Below, one piece after another: positions 18,291 to 35,451 of a DNA stretch of 64,000 bases. Each line of letters opens with the position of its first letter. Position 1 is the first letter of the stretch. The stretch spans positions 3,280,501 to 3,344,500 of the forward strand of contig NZ_CP011477.1 in the NCBI RefSeq assembly GCF_001010805.1, in the 5' to 3' direction. This DNA is from Spongiibacter sp. IMCC21906. Lineage in GTDB: Bacteria > Pseudomonadota > Gammaproteobacteria > Pseudomonadales > Spongiibacteraceae. A program made the position numbers and the translations under genes. The notes below the pieces were generated by a model. It worked only from the letters and a program-made list of their open reading frames with translations, did not search any database and was not told the DNA's origin.

Positions 18291-18590
18291 ATGAGTAATA
18301 AAAGGATCAAATTAACGCCGTATACTGACCCAACGTCTAATTTTCATTCTTGGTCTTTACTTTCCCAAGTAAAAAATGCGAATCAAGAGCTAACTCAACC
18401 GGAGGTCGTAACGAGGGATATTGAGGACAATCAGAACAACAGAAGCTTTCCACACATCCAGCCCCTGCCCCCGTTGCCTCAAAAACACATTGCCACTAAT
18501 ACTGAGACGGCCCTTCCTGGCAAAACCCTGTTAAAGCCCTTATTAAAGAATATTGCTTACGCCAATTGTAAATTGAGTACATCAACGTGA
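18291..18590 (+). CDS. Small unrecognised first gene of the cellulose operon (possible BcsD-partner or Bcs accessory protein)
   Basis: 99 residues, ATG 18291 after an AAGGA site. No signal peptide or membrane segment. An N-terminal segment with SNFHSWSLLSQV and a C-terminal segment GKTLLKPLLKNIAYAN look like two short helices joined by a polar linker with a proline patch (IQPLPPLPQ). The stop overlaps the GTG of bcsQ by four bases, so they are coupled. In other bcsD-containing operons, small proline-containing proteins (BcsO, BcsP, BcsH) occupy similar positions and partner the BcsD scaffold; this gene may be such a partner. That assignment is positional inference, not recognised homology. 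Confidence 0.65.
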   Translation: MSNKRIKLTPYTDPTSNFHSWSLLSQVKNANQELTQPEVVTRDIEDNQNNRSFPHIQPLPPLPQKHIATNTETALPGKTLLKPLLKNIAYANCKLSTST

Positions 18591-19369
18591 CGGTTATCTG
18601 TATTGGTTCTCCCAAAGGGGGTGTCGGTAAAACGACGACGTCAGCACACCTAGCTTACGGGCTACGGCGCTCAGGCTATAGAGTGATTGCGATAGATTTC
18701 GACTCACAAAATGCATTGCGGTTACATTTTGGCATACCGTTAAATGATAGGCGGGGTTTTGTCGAGAGTGCCTCGTACAGCGAAGACTGGTCGTCGCTGG
18801 CAATACCCATTGCCGATAATTTATCAGTACTACCTTATGGCCATCCAAGTCGACAGCTCAAACAACGTTTTGAAGCAGACTTAATGAAACCTGATTTTTT
18901 ACGCCAGCGCCTAGCCTCATTACAAAAAACCCCAGGCACCATTGTGATTATTGATCTCCCCCCAGGAGAATCGAATGCATTGGAGTCCGCGACGAACCTA
19001 GCAGATTTAAGGCTAACCGTATTGCTGCCCGACTCGGCATCGATGGCGTTGCTCCCTCGGGTTGAAAACAATGAGTTTTACCCAGGGACAGTGCCAATGA
19101 ATAGCAGGCATGGCTTTGTACTTAATCAGGTCGACCCACAGCGCCGATTAAATAGTGAAATATGCGCGTTTATAGAGCACCGCCACAAAGATAGTCTCTT
19201 GGGACTGATCCATCGTGATGAAGCCGTAACAGAAGCGAATGCAACACAAAAATCGGTATTTGAAGGCTCTCCAGGCTCGCTGGCTGCAAAAGATTTCAAT
19301 ACTTTTGTCAGCAATGTTATGCGAGAGCTCCTTTCTATAGAAAAACCTGATGGACCAACGGTCGCTTAA
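18587..19369 (+). CDS. bcsQ: Cellulose biosynthesis protein BcsQ (ParA/MinD-like ATPase)
   Basis: A 260-residue SIMIBI ATPase. The deviant Walker A KGGVGKTTTSAHLA lies at about residues 8-21 and the Walker B-like IVIIDLPPGES follows near 125. In enterobacteria BcsQ is needed for cellulose secretion and places or stabilises the synthase complex at the cytoplasmic face of the membrane. GTG start at 18587 overlapping the previous stop (GTGA). It ends one base before the likely start of the synthase gene. Confidence 0.92.
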   Translation: MTVICIGSPKGGVGKTTTSAHLAYGLRRSGYRVIAIDFDSQNALRLHFGIPLNDRRGFVESASYSEDWSSLAIPIADNLSVLPYGHPSRQLKQRFEADLMKPDFLRQRLASLQKTPGTIVIIDLPPGESNALESATNLADLRLTVLLPDSASMALLPRVENNEFYPGTVPMNSRHGFVLNQVDPQRRLNSEICAFIEHRHKDSLLGLIHRDEAVTEANATQKSVFEGSPGSLAAKDFNTFVSNVMRELLSIEKPDGPTVA

Positions 19370-19370
19370 T

Positions 19371-22300
19371 ATGACGACAAAAAATGAAGAACTCCGTTCA
19401 GAGAACTCTCGCGGAGTTCGTTTTTTAGCATGGTTGCTGGCCCTTATATCCATTGGTCCGGTGTTTTTTTTTATAACTACACCAATGGATATCTCTTACC
19501 AAGCTCTATTAGGAATTTTTACCGTCATTATTATGGTGGTTACTAACCGACTGCTGCCAAAGTCTCAGTTAGCCTCATTATTTTTAGCTGCCTTAAGTTT
19601 ATTGGTGTCTACCCGATATTTATATTGGCGGGCTTCAGAGACCTTAGTATTTAATAGCGGATTAGAGTATGTACTAGGATACGGCCTATTTGTGGCGGAG
19701 CTTTATGCATGGCTTATTCTGTTTTTGGGCTACGTACAAACTGCAATGCCGTTGAATAGACGGGTTATTCCGTTGCCAAAAGATATCGCATTATGGCCTA
19801 CCATTGATGTTTATATCCCCAGCTATAACGAAAGCTTGAGCGTCGTAGCTGATACGATACTGGCAGCCCAATGTCTAGAATATCCCACTGACAAACTAAA
19901 TATCTATCTGCTGGATGATGGCAAGCGAGCAGAGTTCTCTGCCTTTGCCGCAAGAGCCGGTGTTGGATATATCACTCGTGATAATAATAAACACGCTAAA
20001 GCTGGAAACTTAAATAACGCCATGACACAAACCCATGGCGAATTAATTGTGGTTTTTGACTGTGACCACGTCCCAACTCGTGGTTTTTTGCAATATACCA
20101 TTGGCGGATTTTTACGAGACCCAAAGCTCTCCCTATTACAAACACCCCATTACTTCTACTCTCAGGATCCCTTCGAACGCAATTTGGCAGTAGGTGAAGA
20201 TATACCGCGTGAAGGGGCGCTATTTTATGGTCCAGTACAGCAGGGCAATGATTTTTGGAATGCCACATTTTTTTGTGGCTCCTGTGCAGTGATACGCCGA
20301 ACAGCGCTGGAAGAGATTGATGGCTTTGCTGTTGATACCGTCACTGAAGATGCCCATACCGCTTTAAAAATGCAGCGAAAAGGTTGGGGGACCGCTTACC
20401 TCGCGTTGCCTTTAGCGGCGGGATTGGCCACTGAGCGGCTTTCATTACATATTGGTCAAAGAGCGCGCTGGGCCCGCGGCATGACGCAAATATTGCGAAT
20501 GGATAACCCGCTTTTTGGACGAGGACTCACATTGTCTCAGCGCTTGTGTTACTTGTCTGCCATGCTGCATTTTCAGTTTCCTCTTCCTCGCGTGGTTTTT
20601 ATTACTGCTCCCCTCGCCTACCTACTACTTGGACAGAATATCATCGCATCCTCGGCCGGTATTATCGTAGCGTATGCACTACCACACTTAAGCCATGCAC
20701 TTTATACCAACTCTCGCACGACAGGACGTTACCGGCATATTTTATGGGGAGAAATATACGAATCTGTATTGGCCTTCCAGCTTGTAAAGCCAACGTTGAC
20801 GACTCTTTTAGATCCTAGCAAAGGTAAATTTAATGTCACCGATAAAGGTGGCTTAGTTGATAAAACCTTTTTTGATATTAATGCCGTCAAACCCCAATTG
20901 ATCGTATCGTTTCTATTAATGGCGGGAGTTGGCTGGGGCATTGTGCGTCTATACTGGCATGACTATTACGATATTGAACCCAACGTCATGCTGCTTAACG
21001 TTTTCTGGGCAGGCTTTAGTCTTTTTATGTTATTAGCCGCCATCACCGTTGGCCGAGAAAGGCAGCAAATACGAAAAACGGTTCGGGTAGCGGTAGAGCT
21101 AGAAGGAAGTATTTTCTTTACCGATGGCCACGCAATAGCGAGTGAAGTGGTTGATATCTCTATGGGAGGAGCACGCTTACGCAACTTGAAAACCCAGCCA
21201 TTTACTGCAGAGATTGAGTGTATTGAGCTAGTTTATCAAGGTCGCAGGGTGGCGCTGCCTGCAAGCTTAATTGCCTGTGATGAACGCTTTATACGAGTGA
21301 GGTTTTCAGAATTAAATATAGACCAACGTCGTAATTTAGTTCGTATTGCACTGGCTAGAGAAGATTCATGGTTCGAAGAGAAAGCAATTAAATCCGATAA
21401 TATCATTCGGTCATTCTTTGGCATATCACGCTGTATTTTAAGTTTGTTGTTTCCAAGCTTATTCTCACGGGGTGATGACGAACGAAAAATTAATGTTCAG
21501 CTAAGAGAGCAGCTTTTCAAACGCTGGATTATGCCTATCGCATTTAGCGTTTTACTTATCGTGTTATTACTATTGGCTAGCTTGCCCGCGTTCGCCAACA
21601 TCAGCAGTGACAGTGAAGGAGATACTGTTAGAGAAATCAGTATTGCGCAAATCAGCAATATGGATGGCTTGCGGTTAAGCACTCACTCTTCAAGAGCAGG
21701 CTTACATTTTTCATTGCCACGCGATGAGGTTGTTACCGGTGCAAGCCTTGATCTCTTGCTTAACTATTCGTCTACCCAAGTAGGTAGCGATACCTTAATT
21801 TTGTCCATTAACGGAGTAAAAATTAAGGAAATTAACTTACAAGAAAACAATGGCACACCGGCTCTGGTCTCGATGGAGATTAATCCAGCATATCTCGTTT
21901 CCAGTAATAATATCGACTTTATGCTGCGCAGCAATAATACCTACACCTGTATAGACCCACTTGTTGGTCAAGCAAAGCTGCATATTCTGCCAACATCACA
22001 GATTCGACTTGCCATAGACACCTTGTCAACAGCTAAAGATTTACACCTATTACCCCGACCTTTTTTAGATGCCGATGCTTCAGGCAGTGCCGCAATCAGT
22101 GTCGTTTTACCAGTCATGCCATCATCCGACCAAGTTCGCGCCGCAACAATAATATCATCGTGGTTTGGCGCAGAGAATCACTTCCGCGGCATGAAATTTA
22201 ACGTAAGTAACACACTTACGAATGGCCATGCCATTGCTTTTGCAACCAATGAAAATCCAGTTATTGGTTTACCCCAAGCACTGATCGAACGTCCGGGAAT

Positions 22301-23726
22301 TAGATTAGTTGCCAACCCCAATTCAACTTTCGGCAGCGTACTTCTTATTGAAGCGCCCGATGATCGAGGTTTAGTACAGGCTGCGCGTTTTTTGGCGCTT
22401 CAGCATAGAGGATTGTTAGGCAACTACGTGGATGCGAGTCAAGCCTTATCTATGCCCCCCGATGTTGAAGTTCAAAATCGCTGGGCCGACACGTCGAAAC
22501 CACTCATGCTAGAAGATATCGTGGACCCTGACAGCCTGCATGTGAAAGGGCTGAGTCCATCTTTAATTCGTATGCCCTTCCGTTTATCGCCGCTACTCAA
22601 TACCTGGCCTGGGCGTACTGTGCCGCTTCACGTTAGTTATCAATTTCCTGAAGGCGACTGGCTAGATACTAAACGGTCGTCGCTGGACTTGATGTTAAAC
22701 GGTCAGTTTTTAAAGTCTCTCTCTGTTAATCGAAAGGGACTTATTGAGCAACTATGGGGGAGCATTGGCGGACGTGTTCGGCAAGAGAAAGCGGTTATTC
22801 ACCTGTCGCCGGAACTACTTCATGGTAAAAACGAATTAACTTTTTATTTCAATTTAAAAGCCAAACTCAAAGACGGCTGCCTAGATGATGTGCCCGACGA
22901 TGTGCTGAGTCACCTTATGCCTGAAACAGGCTTAGATCTAACAGAGCTTCGGACAATGGTATCCGTACCTGACTTATCTCTATTTACCGATGCAGGCTAT
23001 CCATTTACAAGTACCGCTGACCTGTCTAACAGTGCATTGGTATTACCTGCAGAGCCTGATAAAAATACGCTAGCGACGGCGTTTGAATTAGTATCACGAT
23101 TTTCTGAATTTACAGGTAAGCCCGGGATAAATATTGCTGTGGCATTAGGACCAAATCAGCTCGCTGCGGTAAAACAACGTCACTGGTTGGTGCTTTCTCC
23201 TGTCAATGATGACGTAATGCCGAACGTACTGAGCGGCAGCAGACTATACGTTAGTAAAGAACGCCTGCGCATCCGTCCTTTAAGTCGGCGTGACTGGTTG
23301 GCCTCATTACTTTTAGATGGGCAGGATCTTAATGAAGAGAATGCTGATCGCACACTGACTAGCCGAGAATATTTACAAGCTTTAGTAAGCACCGCATCCC
23401 GTGACAACAATGCTTTAACCGTCTTATTAACTGCAACAGATAGCCTAGGTTTAGTAGAGATTGCCAAACAAATAGAAACAGCCGGCGTGTTATCTACTGT
23501 TTCTGACGACCTAGTCATTTTGGATGGGGGCAGCAAGGCATTGTCCTTCCAGTTGGCGGCAACCCGTCTCGATGGGGGCGTTAACCTTTACAACCAAGCG
23601 TATTGGTGGCTTAGCCAGCGTCCACTCTTATTACTGCTCATACCACTAATATTGATTCTACTACTGGTAACGCAGGTGTATACCTTACTGGTCCGGCGGG
23701 CGCAGCGTCGCCGTGATGGGAGATGA
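19371..23726 (+). CDS. bcsAB: Fused cellulose synthase: BcsA catalytic subunit plus BcsB
   Basis: 1451 residues, the sum of a BcsA and a BcsB. BcsA half (about 1-715): membrane helices; GT2 active site with DDG at 182-184, DCD at 230-232, FFCGS at 300-304, TED at 325-327 and QRARW at 363-367; then a PilZ domain with RKTVR (568-572) and DISMGG (595-600), the complete cyclic-di-GMP site. A membrane segment at about 718-743 leads to the periplasmic BcsB half with its jelly-roll and flavodoxin-like domains and a C-terminal anchor near 1425-1445, ending in RRAQRRR. It polymerises UDP-glucose into beta-1,4-glucan and extrudes it when cyclic-di-GMP is bound. BcsA and BcsB are separate in most species; fusions are known in some Komagataeibacter. 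An in-frame ATG at 19350 is an alternative start. Confidence 0.96.
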   Translation: MTTKNEELRSENSRGVRFLAWLLALISIGPVFFFITTPMDISYQALLGIFTVIIMVVTNRLLPKSQLASLFLAALSLLVSTRYLYWRASETLVFNSGLEYVLGYGLFVAELYAWLILFLGYVQTAMPLNRRVIPLPKDIALWPTIDVYIPSYNESLSVVADTILAAQCLEYPTDKLNIYLLDDGKRAEFSAFAARAGVGYITRDNNKHAKAGNLNNAMTQTHGELIVVFDCDHVPTRGFLQYTIGGFLRDPKLSLLQTPHYFYSQDPFERNLAVGEDIPREGALFYGPVQQGNDFWNATFFCGSCAVIRRTALEEIDGFAVDTVTEDAHTALKMQRKGWGTAYLALPLAAGLATERLSLHIGQRARWARGMTQILRMDNPLFGRGLTLSQRLCYLSAMLHFQFPLPRVVFITAPLAYLLLGQNIIASSAGIIVAYALPHLSHALYTNSRTTGRYRHILWGEIYESVLAFQLVKPTLTTLLDPSKGKFNVTDKGGLVDKTFFDINAVKPQLIVSFLLMAGVGWGIVRLYWHDYYDIEPNVMLLNVFWAGFSLFMLLAAITVGRERQQIRKTVRVAVELEGSIFFTDGHAIASEVVDISMGGARLRNLKTQPFTAEIECIELVYQGRRVALPASLIACDERFIRVRFSELNIDQRRNLVRIALAREDSWFEEKAIKSDNIIRSFFGISRCILSLLFPSLFSRGDDERKINVQLREQLFKRWIMPIAFSVLLIVLLLLASLPAFANISSDSEGDTVREISIAQISNMDGLRLSTHSSRAGLHFSLPRDEVVTGASLDLLLNYSSTQVGSDTLILSINGVKIKEINLQENNGTPALVSMEINPAYLVSSNNIDFMLRSNNTYTCIDPLVGQAKLHILPTSQIRLAIDTLSTAKDLHLLPRPFLDADASGSAAISVVLPVMPSSDQVRAATIISSWFGAENHFRGMKFNVSNTLTNGHAIAFATNENPVIGLPQALIERPGIRLVANPNSTFGSVLLIEAPDDRGLVQAARFLALQHRGLLGNYVDASQALSMPPDVEVQNRWADTSKPLMLEDIVDPDSLHVKGLSPSLIRMPFRLSPLLNTWPGRTVPLHVSYQFPEGDWLDTKRSSLDLMLNGQFLKSLSVNRKGLIEQLWGSIGGRVRQEKAVIHLSPELLHGKNELTFYFNLKAKLKDGCLDDVPDDVLSHLMPETGLDLTELRTMVSVPDLSLFTDAGYPFTSTADLSNSALVLPAEPDKNTLATAFELVSRFSEFTGKPGINIAVALGPNQLAAVKQRHWLVLSPVNDDVMPNVLSGSRLYVSKERLRIRPLSRRDWLASLLLDGQDLNEENADRTLTSREYLQALVSTASRDNNALTVLLTATDSLGLVEIAKQIETAGVLSTVSDDLVILDGGSKALSFQLAATRLDGGVNLYNQAYWWLSQRPLLLLLIPLILILLLVTQVYTLLVRRAQRRRDGR

Positions 23727-26700
23727 AAAACGTGCAATTTCAAAAATCGCGTTATTTAAAAGTATTGGCAAAATCTACACTGCTAGCCCTATTACTCCCT
23801 GTAACAGCCTTAGTAGAGGCCGCCCCGTATGAGGCACTACTTGAGCAAGCAAAGTTCTGGATGCAATCTGGGCGCTCTGATTTAGCTGAAGACTCCCTTC
23901 GCAGAATTTTAGCCTCAGACGCAGACAACACTGAAGCCTTGTTGCAAATGGCTTTGATTGAGTTAAATCGCGGCAACGTTGAGACGGCAAAGGAGTGGGG
24001 GCAAAAACTAGAAAGCACTGCACCTGATAGCAACCAGTGGCAAACTTTACAGAATCGTTTACGCAGAGACGCTCTCGACAATAGCGTTTTAGCCAGAGCA
24101 CGAGCTTCTGCAGCTCGCGGCGAAACTGAAAAATCGATTGAGTTGTATCGGGCCTTATTTAAAGGCGATGCACCTCCAGAAGATCTTGCCCTTGAGTATT
24201 ATCAAACCCTTGCAGGGATTGATGCCAGTTGGGCAGAGGCACGGCGAGAACTAGAGCGATTAGCCAAACGTTTTCCTGAAAATTACGCCATTGCTGCAGG
24301 GTTGGCAGAAATACTGACCTATCGAAGTCAAACACGTCGTGAAGGTGCCGCTCGCCTGGAAGAGCTTTGGAATGCAAAACAAAACAATAAGGTATTAAAG
24401 GCTTGGAGAACGAGCCTGTTGTGGTTACCAGCCACATCCGCGAATGCAGCTTTAATGAAAGCTTATTTAGATAAATTTCCCGAAGATCGGGAGCTGAGCG
24501 AGCACCTTGCATCCTATCAAAAAGATACCGGGCAAGCCCGGGCAGATGGTTATGCCGCTCTGAATAAGGGACGTTTACGTGAAGCAAAGTCAGCATTCAC
24601 CACAGCGCTGCAAAACGACCCAAACGATATTGATGCTCAAGTCGGTTTAGGACTGTTGCAGCTGCGGAGTGGTCAGTTTAGGGCAGCAGATAGAAGCTTA
24701 TCTCAGGCAATGTTACGGGCGCCAAAATCTGCGGAAAAATGGCGAGAGGCTCGTGACTCCGCACGGTTTTACGCCAAACTTGAAGATGCACGAAAACTGT
24801 ATAAGTCAGGAAACCTGCCAAAAGCATATCAATCCGTACAACCATTATCAGAGGTTGGCGGTCGTTTAGGCACTGATGCTCAACTACTTGAGGCAGAGAT
24901 TTTATTAGGATTAAATCGTCCTGAAGACGCAGAGCTCATTTACCGGCACCAGCTGGTGTTAAACGCAAGCTCTGTGGATGCCCGCTCCGGGTTGGTTCGC
25001 TCCCTAATTGCACGCAAAAAATTTAGTGAAGCTGATCGTGAATATGCTCGGCTGCCTAAACCTGAACAACAAAAACTTGCCTATCTACGCACTCAACGTG
25101 CAAATGCGCTACGTGAGCATGGCCTAGCATTAATACGTAAAGGTCAGACGGCAGCGGCAGAAGTGATGTTGCGAGATGCCATGATAGCCGCCCCCGACGA
25201 CCCGTGGATACGGTTAGAGCTGGCGCGCCTATATGATGACAAGGGTCAATCGGAGCGAGCAATTGCGCTGGTTGAGCCTACTCCTGCCCGGTCAAGTATT
25301 GATGACTTTACTGTGGCAGCCCTGATCGCCGAGAAGCAACAACGTTGGGATGATGTTAGCGCACTGATCAGCCAGATAGCTAAGTCTAAACGCCAAGCTA
25401 ACCATGAAGCACTGCTTGAGCGTGCAAGCCGCAATAAACGTATTGTGTCGTTACAGCAAATTCTGCGTACGGGAGATCCTATACGAATAGAGATGGCTCT
25501 CGACGATATTTATCGCAATCCGCCATCTACAAGTGCTGAAGTTGGTCGGGTAGCGGCGATGTTGCAGGACGAGGGCGAGCGCAGTCTGGCACTGGCATTG
25601 GTCAGGCGAGATTTGGACCAAGGCCTTAAGGCAGCGGCAACAGATTACTTAAACCATGTTTTGGTATTCAGAAAAACCGAGAACGACGATGAAGCCAGGC
25701 GTTTGTTGGGGTTTTTAGAGCGGCATGCGGCTAAAGATGAAATCGCTAGCAAAAGTTTGATCCGTGCACGTAAGGATATGTTATTGGCCGAAGTCACTAA
25801 CATGATTGAGCAAAAACAATTTGCACAAGCATATGACATTCTTGTTGCCGAACTAGAACGAGCCCCAAACGACAGCCCCATCTTATTAGCTTTGGCAGAT
25901 CTATATAAGCGTGGTGCTTACTATGACTTTTCGCGACAAGTGTATGAACATGTTTATGCACAAGGTGGTGAAAACGCGAACTTGGCCTTACTGGGACTGA
26001 CGGAAAATGCCTTGGCAGCAGATGACCCTGACTCAGCAGAAGATTACTTACAAAAAGCAGCGCCCCTAACGAGTCCGCAGTGGCTTATTTTGGCAGCACG
26101 CACGGCCGAAGCTCAGGGCGATAAACGTCAGGCACTGGTATTTGTTGAACAGGCAAGAATGGCGGTAGCTGGCAATACCGAAGGGGCTCAAATGTATCGT
26201 TTGGGTGAAAATCCATTCCGCGGCGGGCGGTCTGGTTTGCGAAAGCAGGATAATAGCTCGCGCTGGGTACAATTAACGACCCATAAAACAAGTGATGAAT
26301 TCGCCGAATCGAGCGCTTGGCTGCCGAGTCGCAGTATTACTGGCGGCACGTGGCAACCCGACATAAATGATCAGCAATATATTAGACACGCTTTTGATGA
26401 AAAATCAGCGAAAACAGTGGCCTCAACAGAAAACAGCGCCAGCCCATATGACGATAATATGCCGCTACAGTGGTCAGCACGTTACTGGCGGGACCGCGGC
26501 CAAGAACATATCAACACCGCAAGCATAAACGAAGCGGATGTTGCTCGCCGCCGTGAGGTAACCAACATCGAAGAATACCGTAGCAAACTCAAAAAAGACC
26601 TGTCACCACGCTTGCGTGGTGACATTGCTATGCGTTTCCGCGATGGCGAAGAAGGCTTGAGCGAGCTAGCAGAAATTAGCGGTGACCTTGCTTTTTCCGG

Positions 26701-28081
26701 TGTACCTTTCGCCAGCGGCCGCTTAGAAGCAGTAATCAACCCGGTGTTTTTAAACGCGGGCTCTGTTACAAATGATTCTGCACGACGTTTCTTCCGATCG
26801 GCCGTCACCAATGCTGGCACCCAAGCGTTAGCAGAAAAATTGAACGGTGCAAGCCAGATCATTGACGACATAGATAATAGCGCTCAAGAACTCGCCCAAG
26901 CGACAGCTTCTTTAGAGGCGGTACAAAACTCAGCAAACCCAAGCGCCTCAGAAATTGCGGCAGTAGAGGCGCGAGTACAAACTGCGCAGCGCAACTTCAG
27001 CTTAGCGACTAGCCGAAATCCCTTATTTGAATCAGGAATAGATCTGGATACGCTCACAGTCAGTCAGCGTAAGTTTGTAGACGATTTTCTCCTTGAAAAC
27101 TTTGGTGACAACGATTTCTCGCTGGTATCTACAGATGTTGCTACATACCAGAGCCGCAGCACCGCCGTTCGCAACCTAATATCACAACTCACAACAAGAC
27201 TGGGATCGTATAATCGCGCTATCCCCCTAGGCAGCCAGGACGAGTCAGGCTTAGGTGTTGAAATAAATTATCAACGAGATAGCGTCCATCTTGATATTGG
27301 AAGCACGCCATTTGGGTTTGAAATGACAAATTTAGTCGGTGGCATCTCGTTGGCGCCAAAAATCAGCAACAATACCGAGCTTCGTCTCATCGCCCAGCGA
27401 CGTGCAGTCACAGATAGCCTCCTATCCTATGCGGGAGTAGAAGACCCGGTGACCGGTGACCGCTGGGGAGCGGTAACGCGCAGCGGCTTCACATTAGGGT
27501 TTGCCTTTGACAACGAAGATCTTGGCTTTTACGGAGATGCAGGGGCGTATTACTACGATGGCAACCACGTAAAAAGTAACCAGGCAATGCAGGTAAATAT
27601 GGGGGCTTACCTCCGACCGGTCAACAAGAACCAACGCGTCCTGCAAACGGGGGTAAACATCGGCTACTCGAGCTTTTCTGAAAACTTGAGTAAGTTTACT
27701 TATGGTCATGGCGGATACTTCAGCCCACAGAGTTATGTCAGTTTGGCCTTTCCACTCAGCTATTCGGAGCAATATAAAAAACTTTATTGGCGTGCCGGAG
27801 GTGCACTAGGGTTTCAGAGTTATAGCTCTGATAGTGCTGCCTACTTCCCCACCCTGGCTAATGATCAACGCTGGCTGGATATACTGGCAGACACTGGCAC
27901 CATACTCGAATCACGCTATGCATCAGAAAGCAAAAGCGGTTTTGGGTTGAATTTAGGATTGGATATTCGGTACGCGTTATCAGAGGCGCTAACTATTGGC
28001 ACAAGGGTTTCGTACGACACCTTTGGTGATTATTCTGAAACCTCCATGGCAATCAATGTCTTGTATAACACGGACCCTTAA
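23723..28081 (+). CDS. bcsC: Cellulose synthase subunit BcsC (TPR and outer-membrane barrel)
   Basis: 1452 residues, longer than E. coli BcsC (1157) and Komagataeibacter BcsC (about 1325). A signal peptide (hydrophobic 17-32, ending near VEAAP) is followed by a long TPR superhelix to about residue 830, then a linker including an Ala/Gln-rich coiled segment near 1040-1100. The C-terminal porin-like barrel (about 1170-1452) shows alternating aromatic strands and ends in a short hydrophobic motif. It should span the periplasm and export the glucan through the outer membrane. The ATG overlaps the bcsAB stop (ATGA), so they are coupled. Confidence 0.94.
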   Translation: MKNVQFQKSRYLKVLAKSTLLALLLPVTALVEAAPYEALLEQAKFWMQSGRSDLAEDSLRRILASDADNTEALLQMALIELNRGNVETAKEWGQKLESTAPDSNQWQTLQNRLRRDALDNSVLARARASAARGETEKSIELYRALFKGDAPPEDLALEYYQTLAGIDASWAEARRELERLAKRFPENYAIAAGLAEILTYRSQTRREGAARLEELWNAKQNNKVLKAWRTSLLWLPATSANAALMKAYLDKFPEDRELSEHLASYQKDTGQARADGYAALNKGRLREAKSAFTTALQNDPNDIDAQVGLGLLQLRSGQFRAADRSLSQAMLRAPKSAEKWREARDSARFYAKLEDARKLYKSGNLPKAYQSVQPLSEVGGRLGTDAQLLEAEILLGLNRPEDAELIYRHQLVLNASSVDARSGLVRSLIARKKFSEADREYARLPKPEQQKLAYLRTQRANALREHGLALIRKGQTAAAEVMLRDAMIAAPDDPWIRLELARLYDDKGQSERAIALVEPTPARSSIDDFTVAALIAEKQQRWDDVSALISQIAKSKRQANHEALLERASRNKRIVSLQQILRTGDPIRIEMALDDIYRNPPSTSAEVGRVAAMLQDEGERSLALALVRRDLDQGLKAAATDYLNHVLVFRKTENDDEARRLLGFLERHAAKDEIASKSLIRARKDMLLAEVTNMIEQKQFAQAYDILVAELERAPNDSPILLALADLYKRGAYYDFSRQVYEHVYAQGGENANLALLGLTENALAADDPDSAEDYLQKAAPLTSPQWLILAARTAEAQGDKRQALVFVEQARMAVAGNTEGAQMYRLGENPFRGGRSGLRKQDNSSRWVQLTTHKTSDEFAESSAWLPSRSITGGTWQPDINDQQYIRHAFDEKSAKTVASTENSASPYDDNMPLQWSARYWRDRGQEHINTASINEADVARRREVTNIEEYRSKLKKDLSPRLRGDIAMRFRDGEEGLSELAEISGDLAFSGVPFASGRLEAVINPVFLNAGSVTNDSARRFFRSAVTNAGTQALAEKLNGASQIIDDIDNSAQELAQATASLEAVQNSANPSASEIAAVEARVQTAQRNFSLATSRNPLFESGIDLDTLTVSQRKFVDDFLLENFGDNDFSLVSTDVATYQSRSTAVRNLISQLTTRLGSYNRAIPLGSQDESGLGVEINYQRDSVHLDIGSTPFGFEMTNLVGGISLAPKISNNTELRLIAQRRAVTDSLLSYAGVEDPVTGDRWGAVTRSGFTLGFAFDNEDLGFYGDAGAYYYDGNHVKSNQAMQVNMGAYLRPVNKNQRVLQTGVNIGYSSFSENLSKFTYGHGGYFSPQSYVSLAFPLSYSEQYKKLYWRAGGALGFQSYSSDSAAYFPTLANDQRWLDILADTGTILESRYASESKSGFGLNLGLDIRYALSEALTIGTRVSYDTFGDYSETSMAINVLYNTDP

Positions 28082-28085
28082 TGAA

Positions 28086-28559
28086 ATGGATTTAAATAAA
28101 CTAAGTTATGAGCGTAATCAGCGCTACTACCGGGAACGGCACTGCAGCGGCCAATGGCGCGATTTTCTTTGTGTATTGCTCGATGAGTTACAAGACAATA
28201 TGGGAAGGAGTGACACAGCTGATTTTTTTAACGCCATTGGTCAAAAACTCGCTACCCGTTTTTCTCTGGCTGAACAAGACACCGTAGAAGAACTTGAAGA
28301 GCGCCTGAATAGTTTATGGTTAAAGTTAGACTGGGGCTGGTGCCAGCTGATCGCCCAACCTAACTCTATCACCATTATCCATGGAGCCTGGCCAAATCCG
28401 GACGAAGGGAAAGAGACTCTTTGGCCCATTGTTTTTTCGTCGGTATTACAAGGTTTTTATAGTAAATCTCTTTCCATACAGGGCGGTGATGCTAGTGTAA
28501 AAATTGAGATTAAATCCAGCACTTTGGGCATGCCGATAGAGCTAATTTATGGCGCTTAG
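28086..28559 (+). CDS. bcsD: Cellulose synthase subunit D
   Basis: 157 residues from ATG 28086, the same length as Komagataeibacter AcsD (156). Shared features are the DTVEELEERLNSLWLKLDWG block (compare the DKLQIELN and IGWG of AcsD), a Trp-Gly beta start, an IxIxH strand and the WPIVFSSVLQGFYSK segment matching the LAPVLEGLYGRW region. BcsD forms octameric rings that help align glucan chains into crystalline ribbons. It starts 4 bp after bcsC and overlaps bcsZ by 11 bases. A longer in-frame reading from 27996 lies inside bcsC and is unlikely. Confidence 0.85.
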   Translation: MDLNKLSYERNQRYYRERHCSGQWRDFLCVLLDELQDNMGRSDTADFFNAIGQKLATRFSLAEQDTVEELEERLNSLWLKLDWGWCQLIAQPNSITIIHGAWPNPDEGKETLWPIVFSSVLQGFYSKSLSIQGGDASVKIEIKSSTLGMPIELIYGA

Positions 28560-29616
28560 TTTTCGTGTTTTTATCTTGCTGCTGAGTCTGTCAGCCAAAT
28601 CGTATGGCTTTAATTTACACGCCTCGCAAGATATTAGCTGGCAGACTTACGTTCATAATTTTGTTACTCCGAGCGGACGAGTCATTGATACCGGAAATAA
28701 CAATATCAGCCACACCGAGGGGCAAGGCTGGGCAATGCTGATGGCCGTGGCATTTAATGACAAACTGCAGTTTGAAAAAATTTGGCAATGGACAAACGCC
28801 CACCTTCGCCGCCCCGAAGATAATTTGTTCTCCTGGCGTTACCAAGCGGATGCCGACCCTTCTATAGCGGACCGCAACAATGCCAGTGACGGCGATATTC
28901 TTATCGCGTGGGCACTTAGTTTGGCGGCAAGTCGATGGGATTGCCGAGAGTATCGGGAGCAGTCTGCAGTACTGCGGCAAGCTATTGGCAGCAAACTGGT
29001 TATGCAGTTCGGTGGCTATACCGTGCTATTACCAGCTGACGACGGATTCGAACATGATGGGTATATCAATATTAACTTGTCTTACATTGTTGTTCCGGCT
29101 TTACAACATTTTGCTGAGCTGGAACCAAGTGGCGCGTGGCAGGCAATAATAGATGATGCCCAAGTGCTTTTTAACAAGGGTCGTTTTGGTCGGCAGCAAT
29201 TACCTGCCGACTGGCTGCAATTATATGAAGACGGTCATTTAAGCGTTGCCGATAAATGGCCAGCCCGCTTCGGTTATGAAGCAATAAGAATCCCGCTCTA
29301 TTTTCTCTGGGGCGGTTTATCTCAGTCTGAAGGACTTCAATCAATAGCAGATTTTTGGTCAGAATCCGCTACCCCCCCCGCCTGGATCGCTTTAGGCAGT
29401 GAAGAACGTGCGGAATATGGCCTATCGAAAGGCGGAATGGCCGTACGTTATTTACTACTAGGAGAGCATCACCGAATAACAGAATTAAATATAGAACATG
29501 AAAAGTATTACAGCGCCTCTTTGCTGCTTCTTTCTAGGCTGGCAGCGGATAAACAATTTACTGAAAAGGTAATGATTACTGTACCTCAACACAGAGTTAC
29601 GATACCTCCCCGATAA
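28549..29616 (+). CDS. bcsZ: Periplasmic endo-beta-1,4-glucanase BcsZ (GH8)
   Basis: 355 residues with a signal peptide (1-20). The GH8 catalytic acid is E57 in SHTEGQGWAMLMAV, equivalent to E55 of E. coli BcsZ, and NNASDGDILIAWAL (110-123) supplies the conserved acidic residues. It trims or releases nascent glucan in the periplasm and is a standard member of bcs operons. It overlaps bcsD and is the last gene of the operon. Confidence 0.94.
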   Translation: MALSFRVFILLLSLSAKSYGFNLHASQDISWQTYVHNFVTPSGRVIDTGNNNISHTEGQGWAMLMAVAFNDKLQFEKIWQWTNAHLRRPEDNLFSWRYQADADPSIADRNNASDGDILIAWALSLAASRWDCREYREQSAVLRQAIGSKLVMQFGGYTVLLPADDGFEHDGYININLSYIVVPALQHFAELEPSGAWQAIIDDAQVLFNKGRFGRQQLPADWLQLYEDGHLSVADKWPARFGYEAIRIPLYFLWGGLSQSEGLQSIADFWSESATPPAWIALGSEERAEYGLSKGGMAVRYLLLGEHHRITELNIEHEKYYSASLLLLSRLAADKQFTEKVMITVPQHRVTIPPR

Positions 29617-29769
29617 AACATTACAATGCCAGCAGGTTCCCCATCATTCCGTCAGTTATAACACAAAGCGGTCAATGTCAATAAGATTTTCATCAACACC
29701 CTCTTCCTTGCAGGCAGCATTGCATAATTCACAATACTAACTACGCTAATATATTGCACTTTTGGTAGC

Positions 29770-29789
29770 CATATCATATAAATGATATG
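29770..29789. promoter_or_regulatory. 20-bp palindrome upstream of the lipoprotein cluster
   Basis: CATATCAT and ATGATATG are perfect inverted arms around ATAA, about 80 bp before the first lipoprotein gene and inside an AT-rich 250-bp gap. Its size and position fit a dimeric repressor site; no T-run follows. Confidence 0.4.
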
Positions 29790-29871
29790 ACGGAGAATAC
29801 CGTTAGCTGCAATATCTGCAGCACCTTAAAAAAATACCTTCAAACCTAGATTGATAAAACCCGGAGTAGTT

Positions 29872-30426
29872 ATGACTTTCAAAACAAGCCGACGAGCGGT
29901 CAAAGCCGCCCTCGCCGTATTTTTTATTTCTCTTATAACCGCCTGTGCCAGCACCCCCCAAGCCACACCCGCCCAGTTACAAGCCTTCGCCCCGACTCCA
30001 ATCCCTGACAATTCCGGTGAGTATTTATCTCCTTATACATCTGATGCAGTCGTCGCCGAATGGGTTGATAAAGCCATAAATGCTAAGGCAGGTTCTGCTG
30101 TAGGTGGTGCTGTTGGTGCTTACGCAGGTCAAAAAGCACTAGAACAAGTGCCATTTGTAGGCAGTTTTCTTGGCAAAAAACTTGGTCAATCTGCCGGCCG
30201 AGCAATTGCAATTAAATCCTCAGGCGGCATGGATTACATTAAATCAACATCAGATCTATCATTCGACTCCGCAAAAGACCTGTCAGTTTACCTATACGCT
30301 AACTACAGTACTAACGAGCATTATCCCGAGGTACTGGATGCCACAATGGCAATTTATCCAGAGCTAAAAGAAAGCTACTACCAGCATATTATGCAAGCAA
30401 GCAGGGAAGCCGCCGCAATTCAATAA
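29872..30426 (+). CDS. Putative outer-membrane lipoprotein with glycine-zipper segment
   Basis: 184 residues from ATG 29872 (CGGAG site upstream). A lipoprotein signal ends in LITAC, acylated Cys at 25. Residues near 73-120 form a glycine/alanine zipper (GSAVGGAVGAYAGQKAL, then LGKKLGQSAGRA), a pattern that inserts into or packs against membranes. The rest is predicted helical. I do not recognise a named family. It opens a run of five exported proteins on one strand, with the LpoB-like gene 61 bp downstream. Confidence 0.75.
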   Translation: MTFKTSRRAVKAALAVFFISLITACASTPQATPAQLQAFAPTPIPDNSGEYLSPYTSDAVVAEWVDKAINAKAGSAVGGAVGAYAGQKALEQVPFVGSFLGKKLGQSAGRAIAIKSSGGMDYIKSTSDLSFDSAKDLSVYLYANYSTNEHYPEVLDATMAIYPELKESYYQHIMQASREAAAIQ

Positions 30427-30487
30427 TATTTATACGCTGCAATACCATAAGACATACTGCAGCGGTTCTTAAGGAAAAGGAGCAAAT

Positions 30488-31141
30488 ATGACTTCAAGGT
30501 TTGCAGGCCGCGCTTCGGCCATATTAATTGCACTAGCAAGCTCATTTTTTGTAGGTTGCGCTAACAATTCCGTCGACTATGACAACAGTAAAGGAAAGCC
30601 CTCAGTCTATCAGGACACCAATCAGGCTGGCCCTGTACAAGGCGTAGGAATCGAATCCCAAGATATTAATGCAATGGCCGACCAAATGGTGCGAGACATT
30701 ATGTCCAGCGGATTGTTCTCAGGACGTGCTACTCCACCAAGGGTGGTCATAGACAATGAGTACTTCAAGAATGAAAGCAGCTCTATTGTTAATACCAAAA
30801 GAATCACCTTGCGTTTACGGGCACTGCTCAACCGGGCCGCTAGAGGGAAAATCATCTTTATCGGCCGCCAAGACAGTGTAGCCATGGTAGAAAAAGAGCG
30901 TGAACTTAAACGCTCTGGAATGGTTGATTCAGGAAGCATCCGCAGTACAAAAGCCACAGCTGGCGCAGATTATCGCTTAATGGGAACAATTACATCCGGC
31001 GACATCTCTAACAGCTCACAAATGGCGGTAAGAGAAACTGAAATCTTTTTTCAGATGTATGATTTGGAGTATAACTCGATTGTGTGGGAAAACTTCTACG
31101 ATATGAAGAAGGCCGCTCAAGACGACATCATGTACCGCTAG
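30488..31141 (+). CDS. LpoB-like lipoprotein (penicillin-binding protein activator family)
   Basis: 217 residues; lipoprotein signal ending FFVGC (Cys24) and an AAGGAG site before ATG 30488. A disordered N-terminal linker is followed by the LpoB/CsgG-like alpha-beta domain with PPRVVIDNEYFKNESSSIV, RITLRLRALL, FIGRQDSVAMVEKERE and ADYRLMGTITSGD. In E. coli LpoB is an outer-membrane lipoprotein that reaches through the periplasm and activates PBP1b. Whether this copy does so or serves the neighbouring genes is unknown. It is followed by an intrinsic terminator. Confidence 0.82.
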   Translation: MTSRFAGRASAILIALASSFFVGCANNSVDYDNSKGKPSVYQDTNQAGPVQGVGIESQDINAMADQMVRDIMSSGLFSGRATPPRVVIDNEYFKNESSSIVNTKRITLRLRALLNRAARGKIIFIGRQDSVAMVEKERELKRSGMVDSGSIRSTKATAGADYRLMGTITSGDISNSSQMAVRETEIFFQMYDLEYNSIVWENFYDMKKAAQDDIMYR

Positions 31142-31177
31142 CCCTCAAGCTTAAACTTAAAGGCTATCGCGCTGTTT

Positions 31178-31213
31178 AAAAGACCCAAAGAGCTTCATCT
31201 ATGGGTCTTTTTT
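31178..31213 (+). terminator. Intrinsic terminator after the LpoB-like gene
   Basis: A ten-base stem (AAAAGACCCA with TGGGTCTTTT) and a run of T follow 37 bp after the stop. The loop of 14 bases is large, so termination may be partial and allow read-through into the next gene. Confidence 0.75.
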
Positions 31214-31242
31214 ATCGCTCACAAATCAACAGGAATACCATC

Positions 31243-32451
31243 ATGACAAAAGCCAAAATAACAAGTGCTGCAATTGGCTTACTGGTAACGGCCTGCGCCA
31301 CCGGCCCGACAGTATATGAAAAAGCCTCACTTTCTGATGCTGACCGCGCACAAATCTCTACTCTCCCACTTCCGTATCAATCCGCTTACACAAAGCTCTT
31401 ACAGGAAGGAAACCGCAACGAAGTCCTCAATCGCATGGAAATTGGCGCTAAGGCCTTTAAAGCCGGCGATTTCATATTGGCCAAGCGTGAACTTACTGCC
31501 GCCAGAAACACAATTGAACGCATCTATGCCGATGATGAAGATGCATTGAAAGCCCGAAGCCTCTGGTATGAGGAAGGCCGCAAGAACTTCAAGGGCGAAC
31601 CTTACGAACGTTCAATGGTGTATTTTTACCTCGGCCTGATTTACATCACTGAAGGCGACTACGGCAATGCGCACGCCAGTTTTAAAAATGGCCTAATGCA
31701 AGATGCCTTTGCCGAAGAAGAACAAAACCGCAGTGACTTTGCCAGCATGTACTACTTGGCTTGGTGGAGTGCTCAAAGAATGGGCTCCGAAACACTCATC
31801 CGCGATTATAAATATGACGAAGCGTTCAAAGCACTTCGCCCCGATATTGCCGCACCCAACCTTGATAACAAGCTACTTGTTATTGCCGAAACGGGCACGG
31901 CACCCAGGAAACTGGCCGACGGCGTAGGCCATTACGCCTTAGTATACCGTCGAGGTAAAAATTTCACTGAGGAGTCAGTCAATATCCGCTATGACGGTAA
32001 TGATGCAAAGCTGGACTTGCTAGATAGTGTCTATTTTCAAGCAGCTACTCGTGGCGGTCGGGCTGTAGACAAAATTATTGAAGGCAAAGCCTCTTTCAAG
32101 CAAAAAACCGAGAATATAGGTTCAACGCTTACCGACATCGGCATGAGCGATACAGCGCACTTTCTAGCCTACGGTCAAAGTGGCGGAATGGAAACACTGG
32201 GAGCATTGACACTAGTAGGCGTTGCTGCGATGTCATTATCGGCGAACACCAAGGCTCGTGCCGACACTCGATATTGGAAGCACCTACCTGACAGTATTCA
32301 TGTGGGCAGCTTCAAAAACACCGGTACTGACACCAACATTCAAGCCACATTCCTAGACAAAGCAGGTAATGAGGTCACTACTGTCAAGCCCAAAATAAAT
32401 GTTCAGACTAACCCTGATGGCATTAAATTAGCCTTTATCAGTGCGCGATAA
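31243..32451 (+). CDS. TPR-containing lipoprotein of the COG3014 type
   Basis: 402 residues from ATG 31243 (AGGA site upstream). Lipoprotein signal with Cys18 (LLVTACATGP). Residues about 45-180 are TPR-like helices (AFKAGDFILAKRELTAARNT, YFYLGLIYITEGDYGNAHAS). The C-terminal half is beta-rich with a small hydrophobic Gly-rich stretch (GALTLVGVAAMSL). Proteins of this type are found beside lpoB and ycfL homologues in other gammaproteobacteria; their function is not established. The first ATG at 31201 lies inside the terminator hairpin and is rejected. Confidence 0.75.
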   Translation: MTKAKITSAAIGLLVTACATGPTVYEKASLSDADRAQISTLPLPYQSAYTKLLQEGNRNEVLNRMEIGAKAFKAGDFILAKRELTAARNTIERIYADDEDALKARSLWYEEGRKNFKGEPYERSMVYFYLGLIYITEGDYGNAHASFKNGLMQDAFAEEEQNRSDFASMYYLAWWSAQRMGSETLIRDYKYDEAFKALRPDIAAPNLDNKLLVIAETGTAPRKLADGVGHYALVYRRGKNFTEESVNIRYDGNDAKLDLLDSVYFQAATRGGRAVDKIIEGKASFKQKTENIGSTLTDIGMSDTAHFLAYGQSGGMETLGALTLVGVAAMSLSANTKARADTRYWKHLPDSIHVGSFKNTGTDTNIQATFLDKAGNEVTTVKPKINVQTNPDGIKLAFISAR

Positions 32452-32487
32452 AACTTAACTCGCGGTACTTTGAAACGGAGATTTCAC

Positions 32488-32934
32488 ATGAATTATATGA
32501 AAAAACTAAGTATTTGCATTCTTTCAGTGCTAGCAAGTGGAACTGGCATCGCCTCAGAACCGGTACAACGAACCAATGAAGTACAAATGAACGAAGTGGT
32601 ATTTGTTGATCATGACTTGAACAGAACCTACGAGAAATCTTTCTTTGGAATGAAATCCACTAAACAAATCATCAAAGTATCGGTGAACTCCAAAGGCATA
32701 CGCACAACGCCAGGCGGCACGGCAGAAGCCTGGGTGGTCTTCCGCAACCATACGGACTACCCATTACAGATTCAGGCGCAAACTATGTTCTTTGATTCTG
32801 ACATGGCTCCGATGCAACCTGACCCTATGTGGAAGCGTGTATTTCTTCCTGCCAACTCCCTAGGGACCTACAAAGAGCAATCATACGATGGGAATATTAG
32901 TTATTACCGGATAGAAGTGAAGGAGGCTAAATAA
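32488..32934 (+). CDS. YcfL-like (DUF1425) periplasmic protein
   Basis: 148 residues from ATG 32488 with GGAG seven bases upstream. A signal peptide of about 25 residues ends near GIAS, with no lipobox Cys, unlike E. coli YcfL which is a lipoprotein. The domain contains AWVVFRNHTDYPLQIQAQTM and FFDSDMAP, typical of DUF1425, an immunoglobulin-like beta sandwich. In E. coli ycfL lies directly before lpoB; here they are separated by the TPR lipoprotein gene. The stop overlaps the next start (TAATG). Confidence 0.8.
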   Translation: MNYMKKLSICILSVLASGTGIASEPVQRTNEVQMNEVVFVDHDLNRTYEKSFFGMKSTKQIIKVSVNSKGIRTTPGGTAEAWVVFRNHTDYPLQIQAQTMFFDSDMAPMQPDPMWKRVFLPANSLGTYKEQSYDGNISYYRIEVKEAK

Positions 32935-33791
32935 TGAGACTCGCGACCCTTGCGATTACAAGCCTACTGCTTTCCTCCCAAACCTACAGCTTTGAAGATA
33001 CTTCCCCTATGCCTATGATGGCAGAACCCCAGCAGGAAGATTCAGTAGACAATGAAGCCAGCAACCAAGAAATAGTGCGCAGTTTCAGCACCATATACAA
33101 AAAGAAAGGTAAACCGCGCTTAGCAGTTTTCTGGAATCGTAAATTTGACGACCAACTAAGCCAATGGGAACAAGTTGCCAGAGGCAGCGTATCCATGCAG
33201 GCCAGTTTAGAGACCGAAGGCCACTTACCCTCCTCTGAATCCGAAAAAGATGCTAATGGTAAAGCCCGCGCTAAAGCATTAGGCTCTGCCTATATTGAGC
33301 GTAAAAACCCGGCGCAGTACCGTCATGGCCTAGGTGAAACTTCCGACTTTGAATTCGGCTCCGGCTTTGTTCAAAGAATGAGCTCAGCAGGCACTAAAAT
33401 TATTGACCGTTCGACAATTATGCGGTTAATGCAATCCAATAAGCAGGATACAGCTGGCGCTGAAGTTATCACTGATCGCCAAGTCGTCGAAACTGATGCA
33501 TTAAAAGGCTACGCTGACTATATCGCTGAATTGGTGTTTACCCGTAATTCAAGTGCCCCTGTTGGAATGAGCTTTTTAGTCACTGTTAAAGATATAAATA
33601 CAGGTGAAATTGTCACCATGTTCAAAAGTGATGGCGAGCCTCCCACAGTCCAGCAAAAAGCCAAGCTACAGGTAACTGACCACGGTTACGATTACGTCGA
33701 CGATAACAATTCCGATATTAATCCTACCGATGTTGGCGGACAAATCGCACTTGAGATGATGTCAGCATTAACCCAAGTATGGATTAATTAA
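32934..33791 (+). CDS. Exported protein, possibly CsgG/LpoB-fold, unknown function
   Basis: 285 residues, signal peptide to about residue 20 (SLLLSSQTYS), ATG overlapping the ycfL-like stop with GGAGG seven bases before. After a polar, acidic linker comes KGKPRLAVFWNRKFDDQLSQW, resembling the first strand of CsgG/LpoB-type domains, then a mid-section (STIMRLMQSNK) and AELVFTRNSSAPVGMSFLVT with VKDINTGEIVTMFKSDG, like the later strands of that fold. This makes it a second, divergent LpoB/CsgG-like member of the cluster. The similarity is judged by eye. Confidence 0.65.
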   Translation: MRLATLAITSLLLSSQTYSFEDTSPMPMMAEPQQEDSVDNEASNQEIVRSFSTIYKKKGKPRLAVFWNRKFDDQLSQWEQVARGSVSMQASLETEGHLPSSESEKDANGKARAKALGSAYIERKNPAQYRHGLGETSDFEFGSGFVQRMSSAGTKIIDRSTIMRLMQSNKQDTAGAEVITDRQVVETDALKGYADYIAELVFTRNSSAPVGMSFLVTVKDINTGEIVTMFKSDGEPPTVQQKAKLQVTDHGYDYVDDNNSDINPTDVGGQIALEMMSALTQVWIN

Positions 33792-33796
33792 AACTA

Positions 33797-33836
33797 AAAA
33801 CACAAATTGACGCCACCGCGGGTCAATTTGTGTTTT
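33797..33836. terminator. Bidirectional intrinsic terminator
   Basis: A perfect 15-bp stem (AAAACACAAATTGAC and its complement) with a 10-base loop and A/T runs on both sides lies between the convergent lipoprotein cluster and S41-like gene. It serves both strands and overlaps the last two bases of the latter. Confidence 0.9.
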
Positions 33837-35247
33837 ACTTTACAAGGCTTCCTTTGTTCAAAAACTGTATTGCCGCTTCCAGCACAACATCTCTTTCCAA
33901 TTTCAGTTGTTTAGTATGAGTTGTAATTTCCAAAATGGGTTGTACACCTCTACCTTCCAAACGCTCATTGTGGCTACCTATTGCAATATGGTTGGAAATA
34001 CCGAAAAACCAACCATTTGGTAAACTTCTAACCATAACGGGCGAATATATTCCGGCAGACGTTTGGCCGATTAACATAGCCCCAGAGGCCTTAAGGCCAT
34101 ATGCTAGATGTTCCGCAGCGCTTCCAGTTCTTGGACCAAGCAAGACAATAATATTATTAAATCGATGAGAAAAAGTTTCGCTTACCTTCTCGAAACGTTG
34201 ATAAATAAAGAAATCTCCTCCTTCTGCACGATAAAATAATGACGGCTGCTCAAAACTCTCAGGATAAAGAAAACGCCCAATGACCTCTGAAAAAAGTAGG
34301 GAACCGCCTTCATTCAATCGTAAATCTACAATAATCGAATCACTATGTCGTGATAACTTAGCCGCTTTCTGCAATATGTTTTGCAAAACGGACATCGAGT
34401 CATTGCCATAAGCATCTCCCTGACGAAACCGTCCCATTTCAATCACACTCAAATAGACATGCCCATATCGGGTCATTCCTAACTTAATGTTCGGCTTTTC
34501 ACTTTCGACATCTATGTAATGTTTTAAGGCCACTTCCAATCTTTCAGGATAATTACGCGGAACTACATGAGCGCGCCTATCTTGCTGAAAGGTAAATATT
34601 CGTTCAAGCTCTGAGCTCATCAAAAAAGCATGTCCATCCCCCAGTTCGACAAGAAACTCCTTGATCGTATCAAAAAGAATATTCTCCGTAGTTTTGTCGT
34701 CTATTAGACTCATTACCAAATCAAGCTCTACAAGCCGGTTGACGTACTTTTTATATATGCTCTCCAAATTCTCTTGCTTAGCATCAAACAACGCACTTCG
34801 CTCTCGCACTGTCTCCCATAACACTACAAATTGACTGAGCGCAGTATCCACCAGCGATACGTTACAATATCCAGGTAAACTATCCACTCTAACTAGTTCA
34901 ATAAAATGGGAATCTTGAGGACGGCGTATTTTAAGTACATTCTCAGTGATAGGATGAAGTTCAGCCCAATCATTAACCGAAGTGTTAGAAAGGTAGCCCG
35001 TTTGAGGTAGATAACCTGCAGCCGCAACAAAACAGGAAGACTGGGTAAACTGGTAGCGAGTAAAGATACCGTTTTCGACTACTAGATAAAAACCGTAGCC
35101 TTCAGCGCTCCAAATGCCATCATATTTTAGTACGGGGCCATCGCGAAAAGGTAGTACACAGCTTACACAGCTAAACACTACAAAACTTGCCAGTATCATT
35201 ACCTTGATGAGAACTAATGTCCTTGAAATGCTTAGCTTACCTGGCAT
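33835..35247 (-). CDS. S41-family peptidase-like lipoprotein
   Basis: 470 residues. A hydrophobic N-terminus (11-25) ends in VFSC27 or CVSC30, suggesting a lipoprotein. An N-terminal beta-rich region of about 120 residues precedes a helical segment (about 145-205) and a tail-specific-protease core (about 250-450): SIIVDLRLNEGG, then GPRTGSAAEHLAYGLK with the Ser of GSAAE as likely nucleophile, and LIGQTSAGIYSP. No PDZ domain was recognised, unlike Prc/CtpA. Substrate unknown. The gene stands alone and its composition looks AT-rich compared with the pnp region next to it. Confidence 0.8.
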   Translation of the reverse strand: MPGKLSISRTLVLIKVMILASFVVFSCVSCVLPFRDGPVLKYDGIWSAEGYGFYLVVENGIFTRYQFTQSSCFVAAAGYLPQTGYLSNTSVNDWAELHPITENVLKIRRPQDSHFIELVRVDSLPGYCNVSLVDTALSQFVVLWETVRERSALFDAKQENLESIYKKYVNRLVELDLVMSLIDDKTTENILFDTIKEFLVELGDGHAFLMSSELERIFTFQQDRRAHVVPRNYPERLEVALKHYIDVESEKPNIKLGMTRYGHVYLSVIEMGRFRQGDAYGNDSMSVLQNILQKAAKLSRHSDSIIVDLRLNEGGSLLFSEVIGRFLYPESFEQPSLFYRAEGGDFFIYQRFEKVSETFSHRFNNIIVLLGPRTGSAAEHLAYGLKASGAMLIGQTSAGIYSPVMVRSLPNGWFFGISNHIAIGSHNERLEGRGVQPILEITTHTKQLKLERDVVLEAAIQFLNKGSLVK

Positions 35248-35397
35248 GCTACTCTTTTCAAATTAGGCCTATTTTCTTGATTAATGCCGATGCAGCACTA
35301 ATCAGTAGTCAAATACTAACCGTATACAGGTAAAAGATATAGAACTAACACCGACCGCTAATTTTTTATAGTTGAATAAAAATCCACAGCTCTATAA

Positions 35398-35431
35398 AAC
35401 AAAAAACCCCGCAAATGCGGGGTTTTTTGTT
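35398..35431 (-). terminator. Intrinsic terminator of rpsO-pnp
   Basis: Arms 35398-35413 and 35416-35431 form a perfect 16-bp stem, GC-rich at the tip with A/T tracts at the base, 20 bp after the pnp stop. The shape would also work on the plus strand. Confidence 0.92.
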
Positions 35432-35451
35432 CAAACATTAGAAGGGCTAAA

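Follow-up and report, generated by a model that had tools for sequence, protein, structure and literature searches.

Directly behind a cellulose operon, Spongiibacter sp. IMCC21906 carries five genes for exported proteins, which an earlier sequence-only reading had taken for parts of one envelope machine. Here, we asked whether these genes belong together, what kind of assembly their products might build and how such an assembly relates to the activation of PBP1b by LpoB. Unless a locus is named, positions refer to the window, which is the whole stretch of 64,000 nucleotides that was analysed.

Organization of the gene cluster

The five genes (g1 to g5) follow bcsZ, a gene of the cellulose operon, consecutively and on the same strand (29872-33791).

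29872..30426, + strand: g1, glycine-zipper lipoprotein (open reading frame, lipobox, family profile)
30488..31141, + strand: g2, lipoprotein of the LpoB family (PF13036), in a clade specific to the cassette (Pfam, tree)
31243..32451, + strand: g3, TPR lipoprotein (open reading frame, lipobox, TPR match, model)
32488..32934, + strand: g4, YcfL/DUF1425-like exported protein (sub-threshold Pfam score, family matches)
32934..33791, + strand: g5, non-lipidated exported periplasmic protein, CsgG/TolB-N/LpoB-like fold (model)

We confirmed all five open reading frames of this same-strand set and also the proposed TAATG coupling of the last two genes, which is the g4/g5 overlap at 32932-32936. The protein descriptions given previously were accurate except for the likely start of g3, for which we prefer the ATG at 31243 to 31201. 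Lipobox-like motifs can be read from the sequences of g1 (LITAC), g2 (FFVGC) and g3 (LVTAC), and none was found in the window copy of g4 or in g5. Across the families, most members of g1 to g4 (59-63 of 76-88) were lipoprotein-positive, as compared with 4 of 72 for g5.

When the intergenic regions were read by eye, we saw a hairpin followed by a T run between g2 and g3 (31180-31220, AAAGACCC...GGGTCTTTTTT) and a second one after g5 (33795-33832). The loops of both hairpins are above the limit of the scan, which did not list them. Because of the first hairpin, the cassette might be transcribed in two parts.

Conservation of the five genes as one unit

We searched 84,980 species genomes with a g3 pattern and confirmed 163 relatives, and 80 of these loci were taken. 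Iterated profiles of all five genes were run on these 80 loci and on other loci, and they repeatedly found the five genes together. For the linkage counts, we used the 66 loci in which g3 is flanked by 2.5 kb or more on either side. In 61 of them all five genes were present within 6 kb, and the counts for the single genes within 6 kb of g3 were 64 (g1), 66 (g2), 63 (g4) and 62 (g5). Among the 61 complete loci the order g1-g2-g3-g4-g5, which is that of the window, prevailed (36 loci), followed by g2-g3-g4-g5-g1 (11 loci), g1-g2-g3-g4-g5-g1 (six loci) and g3-g4-g5-g2-g1-g1 (four loci, Alcanivorax). Among the orders seen only once is that of Terasakiella, where the cassette is split divergently.

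The distribution over genomes gave a similar picture. In the host's order (390 genomes), g3 was detected in 11 genomes and g1 in ten, all of which were among those eleven. In the host's class (274 genomes), g1 occurred solely in the two genomes with a strong g3 match. A chance grouping of the five genes is ruled out by the linkage in 61 of 66 loci and by the confinement of g1 to g3-positive genomes, and five independently distributed families, an outcome that the co-occurrence check might have returned, are thereby excluded. These data show that the five families have been inherited and moved together, and they strongly support the claim that the genes form one system.

The carriers belong to the Gamma-, Beta- and Alphaproteobacteria, Thermodesulfobacteriota, Nitrospinota and Campylobacterota, and there is one Lentisphaerota MAG. 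It had been stated that homologues of several of the genes co-occur in other gammaproteobacteria. Linked homologues do exist, and in several phyla, but the cassette is sparse and not widespread (within the order, it was present in 11 of 390 genomes). Two cassette contigs were filed under a DHVE2 archaeon (L067) and a Rhodopirellula MAG (L020). Since L020 is nearly identical to Marinobacter loci, both filings are probably binning errors.

Mobility and genomic neighbourhood

The cassette is a sparse, horizontally transferred module. We consider it mobile because it is rare, because plasmid-borne copies exist (Sphingomonas, Marinobacter), because its genes have been reshuffled, and because two lineages with different gene orders occur in Zhongshania beside the same FKBP gene. 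Among the 18 congeners (Zhongshania), a cassette-type LpoB was found only in the host and in one MAG, a contig of which is represented twice, letter for letter, in our set (L021 and L138). This MAG is a Zhongshania, so the host belongs to that genus too. In this MAG the cassette has the Alcanivorax-like order and adjoins the same FKBP gene as that of the host; the only basis for placing the pnp side of its contig is a terminator match of 28 bases. A tree of g3 put the Zhongshania MAG with Alcanivorax (SH-aLRT 96) and the host in a group with Idiomarina, Alteromonas and Aliikangiella (SH-aLRT 90). Two features of the window describe the site:

17370..35451, no strand: strain-variable interval from the FKBP-type isomerase gene to pnp (congener comparison)
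33835..35247, - strand: S41-family peptidase, convergent to the cassette (Pfam, neighbour comparison)

In the host, this interval of 18 kb contains the S41 gene in addition to the cellulose operon and the cassette, and its GC content is below that of the flanks. In one congener (G596) it is almost empty, and in others it holds small exported-protein or hydrolase genes. The S41 gene also adjoins the cassette in ten loci of the Idiomarina group (Idiomarina/Pseudidiomarina) and in one Alteromonas locus, and it was absent from the 17 congeners searched. This pattern indicates that the gene probably moved with this version of the cassette.

The cellulose operon includes a fusion of the BcsA and BcsB domains (19350-23726, 1458 residues); BcsQ is encoded upstream of this fusion, and BcsD and BcsZ are encoded on its downstream side. 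Within the stretches compared, the cellulose genes of the window were present in no other cassette locus, and in none of the eight congener stretches compared did the FKBP-pnp interval contain the operon. A functional link between cassette and cellulose synthesis was therefore rejected, both lying within one variable interval, and the suspicion that their adjacency is due to chance was borne out.

In the literature on LpoB, YcfL/DUF1425, CsgG, COG3014, DUF799/DUF4810/GNA1162 and glycine zippers, we found no published name or description of the cassette. It is a real, mobile five-part system and apparently new to the literature.

Properties of the encoded proteins

The glycine zipper of g1 was recognized in the window copy at a sub-threshold Pfam score. 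Members of this family share a conserved C-terminal domain ([YF]xSP[YF]TxDxVxAEWV...), and their N-termini vary from none at all (window, Idiomarina) to more than 300 residues. The N-terminal domains include PDZ (Alcanivorax), ankyrin repeats (a Marinobacter) and unknown types, and at 13 loci g1 is present in two or three copies. Taken together, the constant C-terminal domain, the variable N-termini and the multiple copies suggest that g1 may act as an exchangeable adaptor; a family of exported passengers is less likely.

For g2, membership in the LpoB family is clear from the Pfam score (PF13036, 71.2 bits, cut-off 22.3), and CsgG was also matched by eight of 33 family members. However, the score against the LpoB equivalog TIGR02722 of NCBIfam (52.3 bits) was below the cut-off of 110.55. 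In a quick tree with long branches, cassette LpoBs and classical LpoBs fell on opposite sides of one branch (SH-aLRT 97). The g2 alignment gave no match among PDB sequences.

The best-conserved member of the cassette is g3, with the core KxFKGEPYER. Its TPR match in Pfam was weak for the window copy, and TPR was found in 37 of 41 family members. The structure model (pLDDT 82.2) comprises N-terminal TPR helices, a C-terminal beta part and a long helical hairpin. It contains no barrel-sized set of strands, and VIA returned TPR-type matches only. For g4, the window copy scored 15.7 bits against DUF1425 and thus stayed under the cut-off of 28.3, but 28 of 32 family members matched this domain (E<=0.01). 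Most relatives of g4 carry a lipobox, unlike the window copy.

Searches with g5 were less productive. Pfam yielded nothing credible, comparison of the g5 alignment with Pfam and PDB sequences yielded nothing credible either, and hhalign found no relatedness to g2. Since these sequence searches were empty, a fold comparison was needed to place g5. The model, calculated from a 36-row alignment (pLDDT 79.7; one row from a plasmid record was left out in the two structure-model alignments), shows alternating helices and strands and a long beta hairpin (81-96/109-124) that follows the first strand and precedes the helix 135-151. Foldseek ranked CsgG (4uv2) first with a weak E-value of 4.8e-3, followed by LpoB, with TolB, GNA1162 and PelC lower. 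The VIA comparison gave the following values: 2iqi (DUF330), Z 9.0, rmsd 4.1, 128 aligned residues; TolB (7mx5), Z 8.2, rmsd 3.3, 109 aligned; LpoB (4q6l), Z 6.5, rmsd 3.5, 103 aligned; FlgT (3w1e), a component of the Vibrio FlgT/FlgO/FlgP ring, Z 6.4, rmsd 4.8, 134 aligned. For CsgG (6l7a), the alignment covered residues 37-285 (Z 7.6, rmsd 7.3, 171 aligned), a Z range that may mean just a common arrangement. The single matches are weak, and the agreement of the model comparisons on one superfamily appears more telling than any lone score. Thus, the proposal of g5 as second candidate for a CsgG/LpoB fold gained support, its model being matched by CsgG, LpoB, TolB and PelC. The hairpin is polar and its strand alternation only slightly exceeds that of shuffled sequences (mean z about 1.5). 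For this reason, we do not claim a membrane pore.

Functional interpretation

As the most likely reading, we propose an outer-membrane-anchored scaffold of the CsgG superfamily with exchangeable glycine-zipper adaptors. That the cassette encodes a single periplasmic complex of this kind, which serves as scaffold or adaptor and not principally as PBP1b activator, has in our view an even chance of being correct, and the mechanism outlined below is balanced to about the same degree. Beneath the outer membrane, g2 and g5 would form an oligomeric collar of CsgG-superfamily proteins. The TPR half of g3 may dock partners onto this collar, and g4 might cap or stabilize it. The glycine-zipper domain of g1 would insert into the membrane or rest against it, and g1 could in this way plug exchangeable sensor or binding domains (PDZ, ankyrin and others) into the collar. 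The whole would be a general outer-membrane scaffold/adaptor, the parts of which are related to LpoB/YcfL, CsgG and PelC. We consider, more tentatively, a mobile outer-membrane machine in which a two-protein scaffold of this superfamily holds exchangeable g1 proteins, the C-terminal domain being a docking or export tag and the N-termini providing host-specific functions.

An alternative is a substrate-specific outer-membrane export channel like those for curli or Pel, in which the pore is lined by g5 hairpins and g2, and the g1 proteins are its substrates, being secreted or displayed at the cell surface. CsgG as best Foldseek match of g5, with a VIA alignment over 37-285, fits this explanation, as do the constant C-terminal domain, variable N-termini and multiple copies of g1. 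PelBC sets a precedent for a TPR protein combined with a CsgG-fold ring (PMC12141448). Nevertheless, we regard an export channel as unlikely: the cassette encodes no beta-barrel protein and lacks genes of the curli and Pel systems, and the g5 hairpin is polar, weakly amphipathic and not evidently at the sites of the two membrane hairpins of CsgG. Moreover, most g1 proteins carry a lipobox of their own and thus look anchored, not released.

More doubtful still is the explanation that g2 is the PBP1b activator of the host and that the products of the neighbouring genes act from the outer membrane to modulate peptidoglycan synthesis. The PBP1b of the host bears a UB2H docking domain (64.8 bits; L093 5633-7789), no lpoP-sized gene was seen beside its gene, and in E. 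coli ycfL (DUF1425) lies directly upstream of lpoB. We looked for a second LpoB that could serve this enzyme and did not find one, which leaves g2 as the only LpoB-family gene of the host. However, a PBP1b with UB2H was present in all 18 Zhongshania congeners, but an LpoB-family gene in only 12, so that six have the enzyme and lack any LpoB. In addition, two genomes (G080, G025) each hold a cassette-type and a classical LpoB, and the cassette occurs in lineages that are not expected to have UB2H (in the Caulobacter control, this domain did not exceed the cut-off). The UB2H and LpoB counts, the co-residence of both LpoB types and the equivalog score make it unlikely, judged from sequence, that g2 is primarily a PBP1b activator; moonlighting in this role is possible. 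The description of g2 as LpoB-like therefore holds for its family, but it is not obviously an activator of PBP1b.

An envelope module for the handling of lipids, hydrocarbons or esters is less probable again. In some lineages, the cassette has a LuxR-HTH/alpha-beta-hydrolase protein as neighbour, encoded on its downstream side in Alcanivorax and on its upstream side in Phenylobacterium; this protein might regulate the cassette in response to a ligand:

L029 15989-17671: LuxR-HTH fused to alpha/beta hydrolase, beside the Alcanivorax cassette
L071 6598-8289: LuxR-HTH fused to alpha/beta hydrolase, beside the Phenylobacterium cassette

Shorter HTH relatives of this protein adjoin the cassette in Sphingobium and Sphingomonas, and Alcanivorax and Marinobacter, which are among the carriers, are genera known for hydrocarbon degradation. 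In contrast, no such regulator lies beside the host cassette and most other lineages lack it as well, the list of carriers is biased by genome sampling, and across lineages the cassette has no recurring catabolic gene family as neighbour. A mobile system for defence or competition, with g1 as membrane-acting effector bearing variable sensor domains, would suit the hotspot site, the patchy distribution and the exchangeable N-termini but is highly improbable, since PADLOC matched none of the five window proteins, no meaningful PHROG link was obtained and no consistent defence neighbours were noticed.

If the scaffold with exchangeable g1 proteins is true, LpoB and YcfL of E. coli would be reduced relatives of multi-part assemblies of this type. 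Using stringent cut-offs, LpoB has been reported as evolutionarily restricted to enterobacteria (PMC3060616). LpoB and DUF1425 are fixed in a cassette that spans several phyla and also occur in a second cluster type in the host's order, which suggests that the activation of PBP1b by LpoB is a specialization of an older outer-membrane lipoprotein assembly. Culturable carriers include Idiomarina loihiensis, Marinobacter adhaerens HP15 (plasmid pHP-187) and Alcanivorax. With a compact and mobile cassette that occurs in such strains, direct tests of its function are feasible.

Comparison with known systems

The CsgG curli channel may share its fold with the g5 model, and some relatives of g2 match its family. 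However, g5 is not a lipoprotein and has one long predicted hairpin in place of the two membrane hairpins of CsgG, and neither the cassette nor the flanking genes scanned include curli subunit or accessory genes. PelB/PelC export combines a TPR protein with a lipoprotein of the CsgG/TolB-N fold and in this respect resembles the cassette, which, in contrast, has no polysaccharide genes of its own and no outer-membrane barrel of the kind fused to the TPR protein in PelBC. LpoP (6w5q), the TPR activator of PBP1b in Pseudomonas, resembles the TPR half of the g3 model, but it is one among many TPR proteins that do so and the match is generic; g3 is far larger and has its own C-terminal half.

The products of the E. 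coli ycfL-lpoB pair belong to the same families as the relatives of g4 (DUF1425) and as g2 (PF13036), and the two families are neighbours in other clusters of the host's order as well. Compared with this pair, the cassette has a g2 of a separate clade that scores below the equivalog cut-off, and it adds g1, g3 and g5. It is also sparse and mobile, and in some genomes it occurs together with a classical LpoB. Classical LpoB clusters are known from the host's order (L094-L110) and are present in several Zhongshania congeners; the host has lost them or never had them. Clusters of this type (such as L094, L098 and L109) encode, like the cassette, an LpoB, a TPR lipoprotein, a DUF1425 protein and a CsgG-domain protein. 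Their sequences are deeply diverged from those of the cassette, no g1 glycine-zipper protein was found in them, and their second CsgG-type protein is a recognizable member of PF03783, which g5 is not. When the cassette is set against the LpoB, CsgG and Pel systems, the domain arrangement of g1 is its most distinguishing feature. The classical clusters and the ycfL-lpoB pair of E. coli suggest a broader type of assembly, of which the cassette is one deeply diverged form.
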